This document shows positions 15,930 through 51,148 of a stretch of 64,000 nucleotides of DNA, in pieces (position 1 is the first letter of the stretch; each line of letters begins with the position of its first letter). The notes under the pieces are model-generated. The model had not been told where the DNA came from. It did not search any database and worked only from the letters and a program-made list of their open reading frames with translations. The position numbers and the translations under genes were made by a program. Where the stretch lies: positions 62,001 through 126,000 of the forward strand of contig MEDJ01000002.1 in NCBI GenBank assembly GCA_001724025.1. The letters are read 5' to 3'. Origin of the DNA: Acidobacteria bacterium SCN 69-37. Lineage in GTDB: Bacteria > Acidobacteriota > Vicinamibacteria > Vicinamibacterales > SCN-69-37.

Positions 15930-15955
15930 GGAGCCCTGGGGCTTCAGCCCCAGGG
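15930..15955. repeat. GGGGCTTCAGCCCC palindrome, copy 1
   Basis: Arms CCCTGGGGCT and AGCCCCAGGG around TC, preceded by GGAG. It lies in the pcaJ-pcaH gap inside an operon, so full termination here would be unexpected. Confidence 0.85.
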
Positions 15956-26568: not shown

Positions 26569-26594
26569 GGAGCCCTGGGGCTTCAGCCCCAGGG
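26569..26594. repeat. GGGGCTTCAGCCCC palindrome, copy 3
   Basis: Canonical copy with 10-bp arms around TC, facing copy 2. It lies 10 bases beyond the hisA stop codon, so the pair probably terminates or stabilises the his mRNA. Confidence 0.85.
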
Positions 26595-26603
26595 AGACGT
26601 GGG

Positions 26604-27284
26604 TTACGGCTTCAGTTCGATCGCCCCGGTGTAGATCGCCATACCGACCACCGCGTCGATGCCGAGGGCGTCGAGGGCGTCGATCTCTTCGCGCGTGCGG
26701 ATGCCACCGGCCGCGATCAGACGCAGGCGCGACGACTCGTTCACCGACTTCACCGCGTCGAAGTCGAGACCGGTCATCATGCCCTCGGTGTCGACGTGCG
26801 TGTAGAGCAGCGCGCCGACGTATGGTTCGAGCGTGCGGGCGGCATCCTCGGGCGTGATCGTCAGCGGCGTTTTCCAGCCGTGAATGACGACCTTGCCGCC
26901 GCGGCTGTCGATGGCGCCAATGAGCGCGTCGGTCGGCAGCGCCTCCGCGAACGCTTCGGCGCGTCCCTTGTTCACGCCGCGCTCGTTGAACAGCGACGAC
27001 CCGAGAATCACGCGCCGCGCTCCGGCGTCGAGCAGTTCCTGCGCGCGCTCGATCGATCGGACACCGCCGCCGACCTGGCAGGGGAGCCGCGTCGCCACGT
27101 GCCGCACTAGGTCGTCGTTGGCCGGACGCCCCATCGCGGCATCGAGATCGATCAGCTGCACGATCTGGAAGTCCTTGAACTTCTCTATCCACCCATCCAC
27201 GTCGTCGCTCTGCAGCGCCAGGCGTTCGCCCTGCTGCAGCTGTACGACCTTGCCACCCATCAGATCGATCGAAGGAATCAACAC
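26604..27284 (-). CDS. hisA: HisA: ProFAR isomerase
   Basis: TIM-barrel enzyme of 226 aa that isomerises ProFAR to PRFAR, the fourth step of histidine synthesis. The N-terminus (MLIPSIDLMGGKVVQLQQG) carries the catalytic Asp of the first half barrel and IGAIDSRGGKVVIHGWK that of the second; phosphate-binding loops are VGGGVRS and AAGGIRTREE. It starts 7 bases after hisF and is the last his gene of the operon. Slightly shorter than typical 240-aa HisA but complete. Confidence 0.93.
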   Translation of the reverse strand: MLIPSIDLMGGKVVQLQQGERLALQSDDVDGWIEKFKDFQIVQLIDLDAAMGRPANDDLVRHVATRLPCQVGGGVRSIERAQELLDAGARRVILGSSLFNERGVNKGRAEAFAEALPTDALIGAIDSRGGKVVIHGWKTPLTITPEDAARTLEPYVGALLYTHVDTEGMMTGLDFDAVKSVNESSRLRLIAAGGIRTREEIDALDALGIDAVVGMAIYTGAIELKP

Positions 27285-27291
27285 GCTTGGT

Positions 27292-28053
27292 TCACCAGTC
27301 GAGACGCATCGGGATGCCGCGTGCGGACAGAAACTGCTTCAGGTCCGTCACGGCATGTTCGGAGAAATGAAAAATCGATGCGGCCAGCGCGGCGTCCGCG
27401 CGGCCCTCAGAGAATACATCGACGAAATGGTCCGGCGTGCCCGCGCCGCCCGACGCGATTACCGGAATCTGCACGGCCTGGCTCACCGCGGCCGTCAGTT
27501 CGCAGTCGAAGCCGCTGCGCGTGCCGTCGCGATCGATCGACGTCAGGAGGATCTCGCCCGCACCGCGGTCCGCGGCCTCGCACGCCCACGCCACGGCTTC
27601 GCGTGCGTCCTTCGTCGTGCCGCTGCGGCCGAATACCTCGAACGTGCCGTGCGCGCGCTTGGCGTCGATGGCCACGATGACCGCCTGGCTGCCGTACGTG
27701 CGCGCCAGGGCCGTGATGAGCGCCGGCTGCGCCAGGGCCGCGCTGTTGAGGCTGACCTTGTCGGCGCCCGCGTCAATCACCGCGCGCGCATCGTCCATCG
27801 ACCGGATGCCGCCACCCACGCACAGCGGGATGAAGAGCTGCTGCGAGACGCGGCGGATCGTGTCGAGCAGCGCGCGCCGGCCCTCGAGCGTGGCCGTGAC
27901 GTCGAGCACCGTGAGCTCGTCGATCCCTTCCTCGTTGTAACGGGCGGCCAGCTCCGCCGGATCACCGGCGTTGCGCAGGCCCTGGAAGTTGACGCCCTTG
28001 ACGACCGATCCATCGCGGACGTCGAGGCAGGCAATCAGGCGTTTCGCGAGCAT
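27292..28053 (-). CDS. hisF: HisF: imidazole glycerol phosphate synthase cyclase subunit
   Basis: TIM-barrel subunit of 253 aa that closes the imidazole ring using ammonia channelled from HisH. Conserved features are [25 protein letters not shown] (catalytic Asp), [34 protein letters not shown] (second catalytic Asp) and [13 protein letters not shown]. It begins 1 base after the hisH stop, so the two subunits of the synthase are translated together. Confidence 0.95.
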
Positions 28054-28054
28054 G

Positions 28055-28663
28055 TCAGGCCGCCCCTTGCACGACGCGGAGGAAGTTGGTCAGCAGCCGC
28101 AGCCCCGTCCGTCCCGACTTCTCCGGGTGGAACTGCACGCCGAAGACGAGGCCGCGTTCCACGGCCGACGAGAACGGCACGGCGTGCGTCGTCGTCGCGA
28201 TCGTGTCGGCGACGACGGGCGCGGCGTACGAATGCGTGAAGTAGGCCGACGAGTCCGTGGGGATCCCGTCGAAGAGTCGCGACGGCCGCGCGGCCAGGGC
28301 CAGGCCGTTCCAGCCCACGTGCGGCACCTTCACCTCGCCCTCGAGGCGGAAGCAGCGGCCGGGCATCAGGCCGAGTCCCGGCGCGTCCGGGGCCTCGGCG
28401 CTGCCCTCGAACAGCCACTGCAGGCCCAGGCAGATCCCGAACAGCGGCACGCCCCGGCCGATCGCCGACTGGATGCCGGTCCGCCACTCGGGGCCGAGCG
28501 AGGTCGTGGCCGCGAAGTGCCCGACGCCCGGCACCACGATGGCGCGCGCGCCGTCGAGCCCTTCGACCGCACTGATTACCGAGACGTCGGCGCCCACGGC
28601 CTTGAAGGCCTTGACGACCGAGGTCAGGTTGCCCGCGCCGTAATCGACGAGCGCGATACTCAC
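28055..28663 (-). CDS. hisH: HisH: imidazole glycerol phosphate synthase glutaminase subunit
   Basis: Class-I glutamine amidotransferase of 202 aa feeding ammonia to HisF. The nucleophile Cys is in [13 protein letters not shown], and the His-Glu pair in [11 protein letters not shown]. The GTG at 28663 overlaps the hisB stop (GTGA) and begins family-like sequence ([19 protein letters not shown]); a longer upstream frame is only a shadow of hisB. Confidence 0.94.
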
Positions 28664-29250
28664 AGCAGGCCCTTGGTGGACGGCAGCATCTTCGCCAGCC
28701 GCTTGTCCTTCGCGCACGCCACGCGCAGCGCCCGCGCGAAGGCCTTGAAGACCGCCTCGATCTGGTGATGACTCGATCGGCCGTAGAGCACCTTGACGTG
28801 GACGTTCGCACGCGCCGCGTTGGCGAAGCCTTCGAAGAAGTCCTGTACCAGTTCGACGGGCAGATCGCCCACCTGCGTCGCCGTGATGTTCGTGAGATCG
28901 ACGACAGGGAACGGACGGCCGGACAGATCGACGGCGGCCACGGCGAGCGTCTCGTCCATCGGCATCAGGAAGTAGCCGGCACGGTTGATCCCCTTCTTGG
29001 TGCCGACCGCCTGGGCCACGGCCTCGCCGAGCGCGATGCCGACGTCCTCGACGGTGTGGTGCGCGTCCACGTCGAGATCGCCCGTGGCCTTCAGCCTCAG
29101 ATCGAAGCCGCCGTGCCGGGCGAACAGCTCGAGCATGTGGTCGAAGAACCGGATGCCGGTGCTGACCGTGTAGGTACCCTTGCCGTCGAGGTTCAGGGTG
29201 AGCTGGATCTGCGTTTCCGTGGTTCGTCGATCAATACGTCCGCGCCGCAA
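28660..29250 (-). CDS. hisB: HisB: imidazoleglycerol-phosphate dehydratase
   Basis: Mn-dependent dehydratase of 196 aa for the sixth step of the pathway. The metal-binding motifs are [18 protein letters not shown] and the C-terminal [32 protein letters not shown]-type sequence appears as [18 protein letters not shown]. It is the monofunctional form, without the fused histidinol-phosphatase of enterobacteria. It starts 43 bases after hisD, the only real gap within the his genes. Confidence 0.95.
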
Positions 29251-29293
29251 GGGGATCCTCCCGATCTGAAATGAGCCGTGTCGACATGCCGGA

Positions 29294-30541
29294 TCAGAGA
29301 CGCAGGCGGATCGACGCCGCGTGCGCAGTCAGGCCCTCGGCGTCGGCCAGCGTGGCAGCCGCCGGACCGAGACGGCGCATCGCGGCCGCACTCAGCGTCT
29401 GCACCGAGAACACGCGCACGAAGTCCGATGCGCTGAGGCCGCCCCGGAAGCGGCCGGCGCCACCAGTGGGCAGGACGTGGTTCGACCCCGTGCAGTAGTC
29501 ACCCGCTGCCTGCACGCTGTACTCGCCGACGAAGATCGTGCCGGCCGTCTGGTACCGACGCGCGTCGTCGCTGGCGTCGATGACGAGGTGCTCCGGGGCC
29601 AGGCGGTTGACGATGTCGATGGCCTCGCGGCGCGATCGAGCCACGATGATGGCGCCACCTGCCGCTATCGCCGCCGCGGCCGGTCCCGTGGCCGGCATCT
29701 GTGCGGCAACCGCCTGGGCCACGGCTCTGGCGAGCGGCGTCTTCGTGGTCACGAGAATGGCGCGCGCGGCCGGATCGTGCTCGGCCTGCGCGATCAGATC
29801 CGCGGCAATCCACGTCGCATTCCCCGTGTCGGAGCAGACGACGATTTCGCTCGGCCCTGCGTGCAGGTCGATGGGGCAATCACGGGACACGAGCGCCTTG
29901 GCGGCTGCGACCCAGGCGTTGCCGGGCCCGACGATCTTGTCGACGCGGTCGATCGTCTCCGTCCCGTAGGCCAGCGCCCCGATCGCCTGTGCCCCGCCAA
30001 TCGCGTACAGCTCCGTGACGCCGGCCACGAGTGCGGCTGCCAGCACCACGGGCGCCGGTGACGGGCACACGGCCACGATGGCCTTCACGCCGGCCGCACG
30101 CGCGGGTACGGCGGTCATCAGCAGCGTGGACGGCAGCGGATAGCGGCCGCCCGGCACGTAGCAGCCCACGCGCGCGAGCGGCTGCACGCGCTGCTCGATG
30201 CGGTGGCCCGGTCCGATGTTGACGACGAACGGGCGCGGGACCTGTTTTTCGGCCACGCGCGCGATGTTCGCCGCGGCCAGTTCGAGCGCCTGGCGCACGT
30301 CCGGGGGCGTGGCCTCCCAGCCGCGCCGCAGCTCGGCCGCCGACAGGGGCGCGAGCGAGATGCGCGCACGCGATCCGCGCCTGTCGAGCGTGCGCGTCCA
30401 CTCGCGCAGGGCGCGATCGCCGCGCGCGCGCACGTCGGCGACAATGCGGGCGGCCTGGCGTTCGACAGCCGCATCGCGCGAGTGATCGCGCGCGGCCAGG
30501 GCGTCGAGGGTCCTGCGATCGGACGATCGGACGATGCGCAT
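29294..30541 (-). CDS. hisD: HisD: histidinol dehydrogenase
   Basis: NAD- and zinc-dependent enzyme of 415 aa that oxidises histidinol to histidine in two steps. Family landmarks are [72 protein letters not shown], the zinc region [27 protein letters not shown] and [11 protein letters not shown]. The ATG at 30541 overlaps the hisG stop codon (ATGA). Further upstream the frame lacks family similarity. Confidence 0.95.
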
Positions 30542-31428
30542 CACAGCACGATCTTGTTGAGCGGGTATTCGACGATGCCCTGGGCGCCGGCCGCCTTGAG
30601 ACGCGGAATCAGCTCGCGTACGGTCCGTTCCTCGATGATCGTGTTGACCGCCACCCAGACGTTGTCGCTGAGCGGCGAAATCGTCGGCCGCTGGAGCGCC
30701 GGGAGCAGGGCCACGACGCGGTCGAGATCGTCGAGCTTCACGTTCAGCATCATGCCCACGCGGCCCTGGGCCTCGATGGCGGCACGCAGCAGGAGCGCGA
30801 TGTTGTCGACCTTCGTCTTCTTCCACGCGTCGTCCAGCACGGCGGGATTGACGATGAACTGCGTGTTCGACTCGAGCACGGTATCGATGATGCGCAGGCG
30901 GTTGGCGCGCAGCGACGATCCCGTCTCGGTCACCTCGACGATGGCGTCGGCCAGCACGGGCGGCTTCACCTCGGTGGCGCCCCACGAGAATTCGACGTTC
31001 ACATTGACGCCCTGCCGCGAAAAGTAGGCCTCGGTGGCCCGCACCAGCTCGGTGGCGACCGTCTTGCCCTCGAGATCCGCCGCCGTCTGGTACGGGGAGT
31101 CATCGGGGACCGCGAGCACCCATTTCACGCGACCGAAGCTCTGCTTCGCGTAGATCAGGTCGGCCACGGGCACGACCGCGGTGTCGTTCTTCGACGCGGC
31201 CGCGTGCTCGGCGACCCAGTCGAGGCCCGTCAGGCCGGCGTCGATGACGCCGTCGGCCACGTACCGCGCCATCTCCTGCGCACGGATCAGCAGGCACTCG
31301 ATTTCCGGGTCGTCGATGCCCGGGTAGTACGAGCGGGAATTGACGTAGATGTTGAAGCCCGCGCGCCCGAACAGCTGAATCGTCGCGTCCTGGAGCGAGC
31401 CCTTGGGCAGGCCGAGCTTGAGTGTCAT
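30541..31428 (-). CDS. hisG: HisG: ATP phosphoribosyltransferase, long form
   Basis: First enzyme of the pathway, joining ATP and PRPP; 295 aa. It has a full C-terminal regulatory domain (ending [23 protein letters not shown]) where histidine normally binds, so it is the hexameric long form and needs no HisZ. The N-terminus [32 protein letters not shown] and the periplasmic-binding-like fold are typical. Its ATG overlaps the hisI stop, and its stop overlaps the hisD start. Feedback inhibition by histidine is expected from the domain. Confidence 0.94.
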
Positions 31429-31751
31429 CGCGTCACCTCGAGCGTCATCGGCTTGAAGAAGCACGTGCGCTCGCCCGTGTGACAGACGTTGCCGTCGCCC
31501 TCGCGCCGTACCCGCACCAGCACCGTGTCGTCGTCGCAGTCGGTCGAGAGACCGACGACGGCCAGGCGGTTGCCGGAGGTCTCACCCTTCATCCAGAGTT
31601 TCTGACGGGTCCGCGAGTAGAACGTGGCGTAGCCCGTCGAGCGGGTGAGCGCGAGGGCTTCGTCGTTCATGAAACCCACCATGAGCACTTCGTTCGATTC
31701 GGCATCCTGGATGACTGCCGGAACGAGGCCATCGAGCTTGCTGAAATCCAT
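31425..31751 (-). CDS. hisI: HisI: phosphoribosyl-AMP cyclohydrolase
   Basis: Zinc enzyme of 108 aa, the third step of the pathway, without the HisE domain fused to it in enterobacteria. Metal ligands are in [31 protein letters not shown] (three cysteines) and the substrate region is [26 protein letters not shown]. The ATG at 31751 has AAGGA 10 bases upstream. It is the first structural gene of the operon, preceded by the His-rich leader ORF. hisE and hisC are not in this window. Confidence 0.94.
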
Positions 31752-31778
31752 AACCGGATTGTCCTTGCCCGGACGGAA

Positions 31779-31804
31779 CTGGTGGGGACAATGCACCCCA
31801 CCAG
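31779..31804 (-). terminator. Perfect 9-bp hairpin before hisI, candidate attenuator stem
   Basis: Arms CTGGTGGGG and CCCCACCAG around an 8-base loop, 27 bases upstream of the hisI start and downstream of the His-rich ORF. No U-run follows, so it may pause polymerase, act with Rho, or govern ribosome access. The segment just beyond it can instead pair with the 3' end of the leader ORF. Confidence 0.5.
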
Positions 31805-31845
31805 GACCGGCGGGGCTGCTGAGATCGTGCGAGGTTGACGAGTCG

Positions 31846-31917
31846 CTACGCGCAGTTCCACCGGACGGTCAGGTGACCGTGATGATGGTGGACGTGGGCG
31901 TGGCGACGCTGGAACAT
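31846..31917 (-). CDS. Histidine-rich leader peptide, 23 aa (hisL-like)
   Basis: A minus-strand ATG-TAG ORF of 24 codons lies 94 bases in front of hisI. Codons 6-15 read HAHVHHHHGH, seven histidines in ten, which is the hallmark of a his-operon leader peptide whose ribosome stalls when charged His-tRNA is scarce. An inverted repeat ACGGTCA/TGACCGT (31865-31880) overlaps the 3' end of the His codons, and CCGGTGGAACT at the end of the ORF can pair with AGTTCCGTCCGG at 31769-31780. There is no clear ribosome site. TAACAT at 31930-31925 could be a -10 box that starts the RNA almost at the ATG (leaderless translation). Not homologous by eye to enterobacterial HisL beyond the His run. Confidence 0.7.
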   Translation of the reverse strand: MFQRRHAHVHHHHGHLTVRWNCA

Positions 31918-31937
31918 CGGGGAAATGTTAGCACAGG

Positions 31938-32065: not shown

Positions 32066-32091
32066 GGAGCCCTGGGGCTTCAGCCCCAGGG
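32066..32091. repeat. GGGGCTTCAGCCCC palindrome, copy 4
   Basis: Canonical copy with 10-bp arms around TC, in the divergent gap between the his operon and the RuBisCO-like gene. Being upstream of both units it cannot be a terminator for either. Confidence 0.85.
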
Positions 32092-32172: not shown

Positions 32173-33279
32173 GTGGCATCACGACTGACGGTCGTCTATC
32201 GCGTGCGCGGCAGCGCAGCGTCGGCGGCCGAGCGCGCCGAGGCGCTGGCCGTCGAGCAGAGCGTGGAGATGCCCGTCTCGGCGATCGCCGACGCATACGT
32301 GCGTGAACAGATCGTCGGCCGTGTCCTGGGGATCGACCAGGTCGACGACGAGGTGCACGATGTGCGCATCGGCCTGGCGCCCGAGACGATCGGAGACGAC
32401 GCGGGACAGCTCTTCAACATGCTGTTCGGCAACAGTTCGCTGCTCGATGACGTCGTGCTGCAGGACGTCGATCTGCCCGACGATCTGGTGCGGGCGTTCG
32501 GCGGACCGCGCCACGGCATCGACGGATTGCGTCGTCGCATCGGCGGCCGGCGGCGGGCCCTGACCGGATCGGCACTGAAGCCCCAGGGGCTCCCGCCGGA
32601 CGATCTGGCGCGGCTGGCCGCGCGATTCGCGCAGGGCGGCATCGACGTGGTGAAGGACGATCACGGCCTGGCGGACCAGGCCTACTCGCCGTTCGCCGCG
32701 CGAATCACGGCCGTTGCCGCAGCGCTGCGGGACGTGGCCGATCGGACGGGGCACCGCACGTGCTACGTCCCCAGCGTCTCCGGCGATCTCGACCGTTGCA
32801 GCCGCCAGATCGATCTGGCGCGCGGCGAAGGACTCGACACGGTGATGGTGGCGCCGATGATTGCCGGCCCCGCGAACGTACAGGCCCTGGTGCGCCGCTA
32901 CCCGGACATCGCGTTCATCGCGCATCCAACGCTGGCCGGCGCGGCGCGTCTCGCCCCGCTGGTGCTCTACGGCCGGCTCTTCCGCCTGATCGGCATCGAC
33001 GGCGTGATCTTCCCGAATCACGGCGGGCGATTCGGCTATTCGGCCGACACGTGCCGCGCGCTTGCCGACGCGGCCCGAGGGCCATGGCGCGATCTGGCTC
33101 CGGTACTCCCGATTCCCGCCGGTGGGATGACGCCGGATCGCGCCGGTGAGATGCTCGACTTCTACGGCCGCGACGTGCTGCTGCTGATTGGCGGCGCGCT
33201 GCTCAGGGCCGGCGATCGACTGATCGACGCAACGGCGGCGTTCGTGCGGGCCGTCGACGCGCACACCTACGGAGACTGA
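32173..33279 (+). CDS. RuBisCO-like protein (form IV type)
   Basis: A 368-aa relative of the RuBisCO large subunit. The N-terminal domain ends in FGNSSLLDDVVLQDVDLP, and the barrel begins SALKPQGLPPDDLA (Lys136, matching the first active-site lysine) followed by GGIDVVKDDHGLADQAYSPFAAR, where Lys161-Asp162-Asp163 match the carbamylated lysine and metal aspartate but the metal glutamate is His164. His251 (FIAHPTLAG) is in the place of the proton-transfer histidine. Loop 6, which should carry the catalytic lysine, reads GVIFPNHGGRFGYS and has none, so CO2 fixation is excluded. Relatives of this group include isomerases of methionine salvage and decarboxylases or transcarboxylases of sugar-acid catabolism. 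It starts at GTG 32173 and leads a cupin and a hydrolase gene. Confidence 0.88.
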   Translation: MASRLTVVYRVRGSAASAAERAEALAVEQSVEMPVSAIADAYVREQIVGRVLGIDQVDDEVHDVRIGLAPETIGDDAGQLFNMLFGNSSLLDDVVLQDVDLPDDLVRAFGGPRHGIDGLRRRIGGRRRALTGSALKPQGLPPDDLARLAARFAQGGIDVVKDDHGLADQAYSPFAARITAVAAALRDVADRTGHRTCYVPSVSGDLDRCSRQIDLARGEGLDTVMVAPMIAGPANVQALVRRYPDIAFIAHPTLAGAARLAPLVLYGRLFRLIGIDGVIFPNHGGRFGYSADTCRALADAARGPWRDLAPVLPIPAGGMTPDRAGEMLDFYGRDVLLLIGGALLRAGDRLIDATAAFVRAVDAHTYGD

Positions 33280-50184: not shown

Positions 50185-50210
50185 GGAGCCCTGGGGCTTC
50201 AGCCCCAGGG
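50185..50210. repeat. GGGGCTTCAGCCCC palindrome, copy 7
   Basis: Canonical copy, ending 5 bases before the stop codon of the HAD gene read from the other strand. Confidence 0.85.
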
Positions 50211-51122: not shown

Positions 51123-51148
51123 GGAGCCCTGGGGCTTCAGCCCCAGGG
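51123..51148. repeat. GGGGCTTCAGCCCC palindrome, copy 10
   Basis: Canonical copy, 56 bases before the GDPD start codon. Confidence 0.85.

Follow-up and report, generated by a model that had tools for sequence, protein, structure and literature searches.

Ribosome-mediated attenuation of his operons is classical in gamma-proteobacteria. According to a 2010 survey, almost no function had been assigned to the attenuators of Acidobacteria (PMC2965389). Candidate His leader attenuators have been predicted in a few Firmicutes (the Bacillus cereus group, Peptostreptococcaceae and Erysipelotrichales) in a study that covers Gram-positive bacteria and makes no mention of Acidobacteria (PMC9413887). As for attenuators read from leaderless mRNAs, the attenuator mRNA of S. 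meliloti trpL starts at the AUG of the leader peptide (PMC7298713), and the ilvBNC leader of Corynebacterium glutamicum has been treated as leaderless (PMC11857589); about 13% of the genes in Acidobacteria are predicted to be leaderless (PMC3160421). No description of his attenuation in Acidobacteria was found in the literature that we searched. We analysed a 64,000-nt stretch of acidobacterial DNA (the window) together with related genomes, and consider it likely that a ribosome-mediated attenuator, with a putatively leaderless His-rich leader as its sensor, controls the his operon in this group.

The his operon of the window lies on the minus strand in the order hisI-G-D-B-H-F-A; all seven genes were identified with NCBIfam, bearing out the operon with hisI as its first gene that had been proposed in an initial annotation of this DNA. 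Table 1 lists the features of the locus. The 23-codon leader ORF MFQRRHAHVHHHHGHLTVRWNCA has its His run, HAHVHHHHGH, at residues 6-15, and 94 nt separate its stop codon from the hisI ATG (31751). All of this had been described before and was found again, and re-reading the sequence showed every coordinate given earlier to be correct. In 10 dinucleotide-shuffled windows no stretch with at least six His in 12 residues was found in any frame, and among the 4 copies of the pattern CAYCAYCAYCAYNNNCAY in the whole genome, the his-leader copy alone sits in a short ORF. The His-rich leader ORF is confirmed as real and is far from what chance would produce.

Table 1. Features of the his leader region and his operon (positions are those of the window)
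Feature	Position	Strand	Basis or remark
Extended -10 element TGTGCTAACAT (-10 is TAACAT, 31930-31925)	31925..31935	minus	sequence; 7 nt from the leader ATG
Histidine leader peptide ORF MFQRRHAHVHHHHGHLTVRWNCA	31846..31917	minus	23 codons, predicted leaderless
Segment 1, TCCACC, within the His codons, partner of segment 2	31887..31892	minus	fold of the leader ORF
Inverted repeat ACGGTC/GACCGT, 6 bp, apical stem of the 1:2 hairpin	31865..31880	minus	fold
Segment 2, CCGGTGGAACTGC, 3' end of the leader ORF, partner of segment 1 or 3	31852..31864	minus	duplex with segment 3, covariation
Segment 3, GCAGCCCCGCCGG, terminator 5' arm and antiterminator 3' half	31807..31819	minus	duplex, alignment, covariation
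Segment 4, GGTGGGG, terminator 3' arm	31796..31802	minus	covariation of 3:4
9-bp hairpin, segments 4:5, alternative to 3:4	31779..31804	minus	fold; present in the window's clade
U-poor tract TGCATTGT in place of the TTTTTT of relatives	31788..31795	minus	comparison with relatives
Shine-Dalgarno (SD) sequence AAGGA of hisI	31762..31766	minus	sequence
hisI, first structural gene	31425..31751	minus	NCBIfam NF000768, 141 bits (cut-off 126)
hisG-hisD-hisB-hisH-hisF-hisA, remainder of the operon	26604..31464	minus	NCBIfam; start codons not refined

Two other elements were observed in the window. A palindromic repeat, CTGGGGCTGAAGCCCCAGGG, has five perfect copies on the minus strand of the window (15934-15953, 26573-26592, 32070-32089, 50189-50208 and 51127-51146; 0 expected), and the copy at 32070 is located upstream of the his leader; its match to the Rfam family Acido-Lenti-1 is weak and below threshold. 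The divergent neighbor of the his operon (32173-33279, plus strand) encodes a RuBisCO-like protein that falls under the cut-offs of all RuBisCO-family models.

To see how widely the leader occurs, we gathered hisI upstream regions from the family, order, class and phylum of the window. At the level of the order (Vicinamibacterales; the set includes loci labelled Vicinamibacterales, Vicinamibacteraceae and Luteitalea), we counted loci whose upstream sequence reached 150 nt or more and called a leader when at least four His occur in 12 residues. By this measure 120 of the 126 loci have a His leader before hisI. Absence of the His run from relatives had been named beforehand as what would speak against the proposal; the run is kept. 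In three of the remaining six loci the His run is thinned out; the other three, all from one genus (g77; L066, L076 and L096), have lost the leader. In L076 the promoter gives way almost at once to a hairpin that resembles a terminator and has a short T-run. All tested hisI-first loci of the Terriglobia type (labelled Acidobacteriaceae, Edaphobacter and Angelobacter) have the leader as well (19/19 in one sample, and 20 with adequate upstream sequence in another, the two sets overlapping). Outside this order but within its class, none of 24 hisI loci has it. The leader peptides have only the His run in common, and their other residues and length are free to vary. His codons are used near 1:1 (468 CAC and 457 CAT), a sign that selection acts on the amino acid and not on one codon.

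Before hisG, a His leader was found in one alone of 27 genomes of other families: the hisG locus L321 (genome G290, from another family of the phylum) has the His-rich ORF MYQGISQIHHLHHHHATHSRVN upstream, perhaps an independent His attenuator. No convincing Trp leader was found before trpE in the relatives. We note that 4 of the 14 genomes of the window's family (G007, G008, G010 and G013), two of them rated 100% complete, have no hisI match, and these may be histidine auxotrophs or have a replaced enzyme. Four loci titled Acidimicrobiia (L164, L202, L205 and L208) encode HisI proteins 69-77% identical to that of the window and close to those of this order; their titles are probably wrong.

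Transcription normally starts 6-8 nt past the -10 element. In 107 of 139 relatives, the distance from the end of the -10 to the start codon of the leader is 8-10 nt (about 7 expected, best promoter match against shuffles), and their leaders usually have a TTGACA-like -35. An SD core precedes the leader in 8/139 as compared to 60/139 before hisI. With this spacing the his mRNA should begin at the leader AUG or 1-3 nt before it and, SD cores being nearly absent, the leader is predicted to be translated from a leaderless mRNA, in support of the earlier suggestion that it is possibly leaderless and lacks an SD. The window itself, with a spacing of 7 nt and no SD before the leader ORF, has the arrangement by which leaderless mRNAs are recognized (a -10 located 5-10 nt before the start codon, and no SD); no good -35 is seen in the window upstream of its extended -10.

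The leader region can be divided into four segments that pair as 1:2, 2:3 or 3:4. The 1:2 hairpin, formed by the His codons and segment 2, has a folding energy of -33.9 kcal/mol (z -4.65), and a similar hairpin was seen in most relatives inspected; the inverted repeat noticed before at 31865-31880 is indeed present, and is the tip of this larger hairpin, which spans the whole leader ORF. In the window, 2:3 pairs CCGGTGG..CTGC (31864-31852) with GCAG..CCGCCGG (31819-31807) in a duplex of -22.2 kcal/mol, and 3:4 pairs 31815-31809 with 31802-31796 (hairpin 31815-31796). Neither was part of the initial annotation, and these are the pairings conserved in relatives. Segment 2 lies within the 3' end of the leader ORF and would be covered by a ribosome that has reached the leader stop codon; the 2:3 antiterminator excludes the 3:4 terminator. 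Such an arrangement, with a leader rich in codons for the operon's own amino acid, marks attenuators of the trp/his type, and judging from its 1:2, 2:3 and 3:4 layout this locus is probably one of them.

Both conserved helices covary, as scored on an alignment of 69 sequences with a test that shared ancestry inflates. For 2:3 the score was 38 against 18.4 expected, with 77.9% of cells paired as compared to 21-49% in slid controls, which clearly fail; for 3:4 there were 30 double-change cells against 7.3 expected, and 99% of cells are paired. Segments 2 and 3 from the same relative form duplexes of -22.4 kcal/mol versus -20.0 kcal/mol for swapped partners (0 of 5000 permutations; shared ancestry not removed). 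By inspection, and with mismatches allowed, about 115 of 120 Vicinamibacterales loci have a GC-rich hairpin and then a U-run after the leader stop; under a strict definition this arrangement is found in 102/120 versus 1/600 shuffles, and most of the loci that fail have it with a mismatch. At the level of sequence, the comparison documents the leader, the promoter spacing, the covarying 2:3 and 3:4 pairings and the U-run in about 115 relatives, and it supports the concept of a His leader peptide with an attenuator. The upstream alignment proposed earlier shows the His run kept and two helices covarying, but the two pairings first picked out, a 9-bp hairpin and a long-range complementarity, are not among the conserved parts. 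The latter (31854-31864 with 31769-31780) is partial: AGTTCC and CCGG pair, with a bulge, outside the conserved switch. We rejected it as a switch; segment 3 is the better partner for these leader bases.

In the mechanism that we propose, transcription would begin at the leader AUG or about 1-3 nt away from it, and a ribosome would load on the leaderless mRNA and follow RNA polymerase, translating the His-rich leader. With ample His-tRNA, the ribosome would get to the stop codon and cover segment 2 (or depart, in which case 1:2 would reform); either way segment 3 would be free, 3:4 could form, and transcription would end before hisI. With scarce His-tRNA, the ribosome would stall on the His run and open 1:2, so that the 2:3 antiterminator would form, 3:4 would be blocked and the operon would be transcribed. 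Ribosome stalling, leaderless initiation and termination in vivo are steps that we infer from these conserved elements. When ribosome states were folded at equilibrium with the full terminator present, 3:4 prevailed in the majority of species, a stalled ribosome notwithstanding, and the switch was seen in just 38/115. Equilibrium folding mostly misses the switch because, once complete, the terminator is almost without exception more stable than any other structure. Such folding is uninformative about kinetics and was dropped as a test of the switch; for the model to work, folding has to be governed by co-transcriptional kinetics.

The window's own clade (the window, L002 from the same genus, and L004 and L005 from two close genera; four genomes in three genera) departs from this scheme at one step. 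Segments 1-4 are intact in all four, but the U-run is gone, and a consensus scan found no terminator in this clade. The initial annotation was right that this genome has no U-run, but its absence reflects a loss within the window's clade and is not typical of the phylum. (L083 is another, separate Vicinamibacterales locus with the attenuator hairpin but no U-run.) In the window, TGC (31795-31793) pairs with GCA (31819-31817), which lengthens the 3:4 stem. The perfect 9-bp hairpin reported earlier, CTGGTGGGG/CCCCACCAG (31804-31796/31787-31779), is present (-18.8 kcal/mol, z -3.7), but it is a feature of this clade and does not belong to the conserved switch; with no U-run, and with 3:4 in its place outside the close relatives, it was also discarded as a terminator. 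In the window, 3:4 and 4:5 have equal minimum free energies (-18.8 kcal/mol) and share segment 4, making them mutually exclusive, and L004 and L005 retain 4:5 via an exchange of U-A to C-G (possibly a single event).

Since the U-run has been lost in its clade, we infer attenuation in this exact genome from its relatives. With 1:2, 2:3 and 3:4 kept but the U-run lost, the stop step there may use a U-poor or factor-assisted terminator. For this clade we prefer the reading that transcription would terminate at a U-poor hairpin, either unaided or helped by a factor. More tentatively, the his attenuator of Acidobacteriota may be old and peculiar to them, with a leaderless leader; in the window's clade it may have become a switch between two hairpins (3:4 and 4:5) of equal predicted stability, without a U-run and read out in some way that differs from classical intrinsic termination.

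The same changes could fit a translational attenuator, in which 3:4, once formed, frees downstream bases to pair with the SD of hisI, and 4:5, formed after stalling, frees the SD. Replacement of this kind is known in other attenuators (PMC9413887). The loss of the U-run with segments 1-4 kept, and the survival of 4:5 in two relatives in which U-A has become C-G, agree with it, as does the complementarity of ATTGTCC to GGACAAT in the window and of GTCCTT to AAGGAC in the same-genus relative. In folding, the SD of L002 is 1% unpaired with 3:4 trapped versus 26% with 2:3 formed, but the effect in the window goes the wrong way (60% versus 44%), and L004 and L005 show no effect on SD accessibility. 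With the expected direction in L002 only, sequestration of the ribosome binding site is unsupported by folding, and we regard translational control in this clade as unlikely. Alternatively, the attenuator there may be decaying into a relic, with the leader remaining and the operon expressed constitutively. That the U-run is missing from four genomes of three genera, and that genus g77 has wholly lost the leader, would fit; against this, the His run, 2:3 and 3:4 are intact across three genera while the flanks diverge, and the 2:3 pair CCGGTGG/GCAGCCCCGCCGG is identical in L001 and L002, and we hold a relic to be quite improbable.

The two other explanations concern the leader itself. Its His-rich composition would suit a functional, metal-binding small protein that is in the operon by happenstance, but this is very hard to reconcile with residues and length that vary freely outside the His run, with the covariation between the RNA of the ORF 3' end and a terminator arm, and with a presence that tracks hisI-first his operons and a single copy in the genome. 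A chance ORF with chance hairpins, which GC-rich sequence would commonly form, is refuted by conservation in more than 120 species and none in shuffles.

Searches against Rfam place the leader outside the described families. The leader region matches no Rfam family; RF00514 (His_leader) gave no hit at E-values up to 10 in the window region and none in 20 loci at the gathering threshold, and the T-box (RF00230) has no match in the window region or in 20 loci at the gathering threshold. Attenuation of his would be one assigned function for attenuators across the whole order, and probably in Terriglobia too. In leaderless attenuation, ribosome loading must keep pace with RNA polymerase without an SD, and the near-constant spacing between promoter and start codon makes these loci a large natural data set on attenuation driven by leaderless translation. 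The window's clade illustrates how the U-run of a terminator can be lost while the sensing part stays.

Among known systems, the hisDCB 5' UTR of C. glutamicum (T-box-like or translational) is alike in that his is controlled at the RNA level, with SD sequestration proposed, but it has no His-rich ORF (PMC3896937), whereas the Acidobacteriota loci do have one and are not matched by the T-box model. The trpL and ilvBNC leaders concern Trp or branched-chain amino acids in Proteobacteria and Actinobacteria, and the Acidobacteriota his case is a predicted one. The Firmicutes candidates (PMC9413887) share a short run of His codons and a terminator and antiterminator derived from comparative genomics; they have 3-5 consecutive His codons, while the leaders of Acidobacteriota, another phylum, mostly have 5-8 His. 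HisL of gamma-proteobacteria (RF00514) likewise combines a His-rich leader with alternative antiterminator and terminator hairpins before the his operon. The Acidobacteriota leader differs from it in lacking an SD and lying at the predicted transcription start, in preceding hisI and not hisG, in its simpler 1-2-3-4 layout, and, within the window's clade, in the loss of the U-run. What appears to be new, from these comparisons, is a probable his attenuator in Acidobacteriota with a predicted leaderless leader and a different first gene, on a principle known from E. coli.
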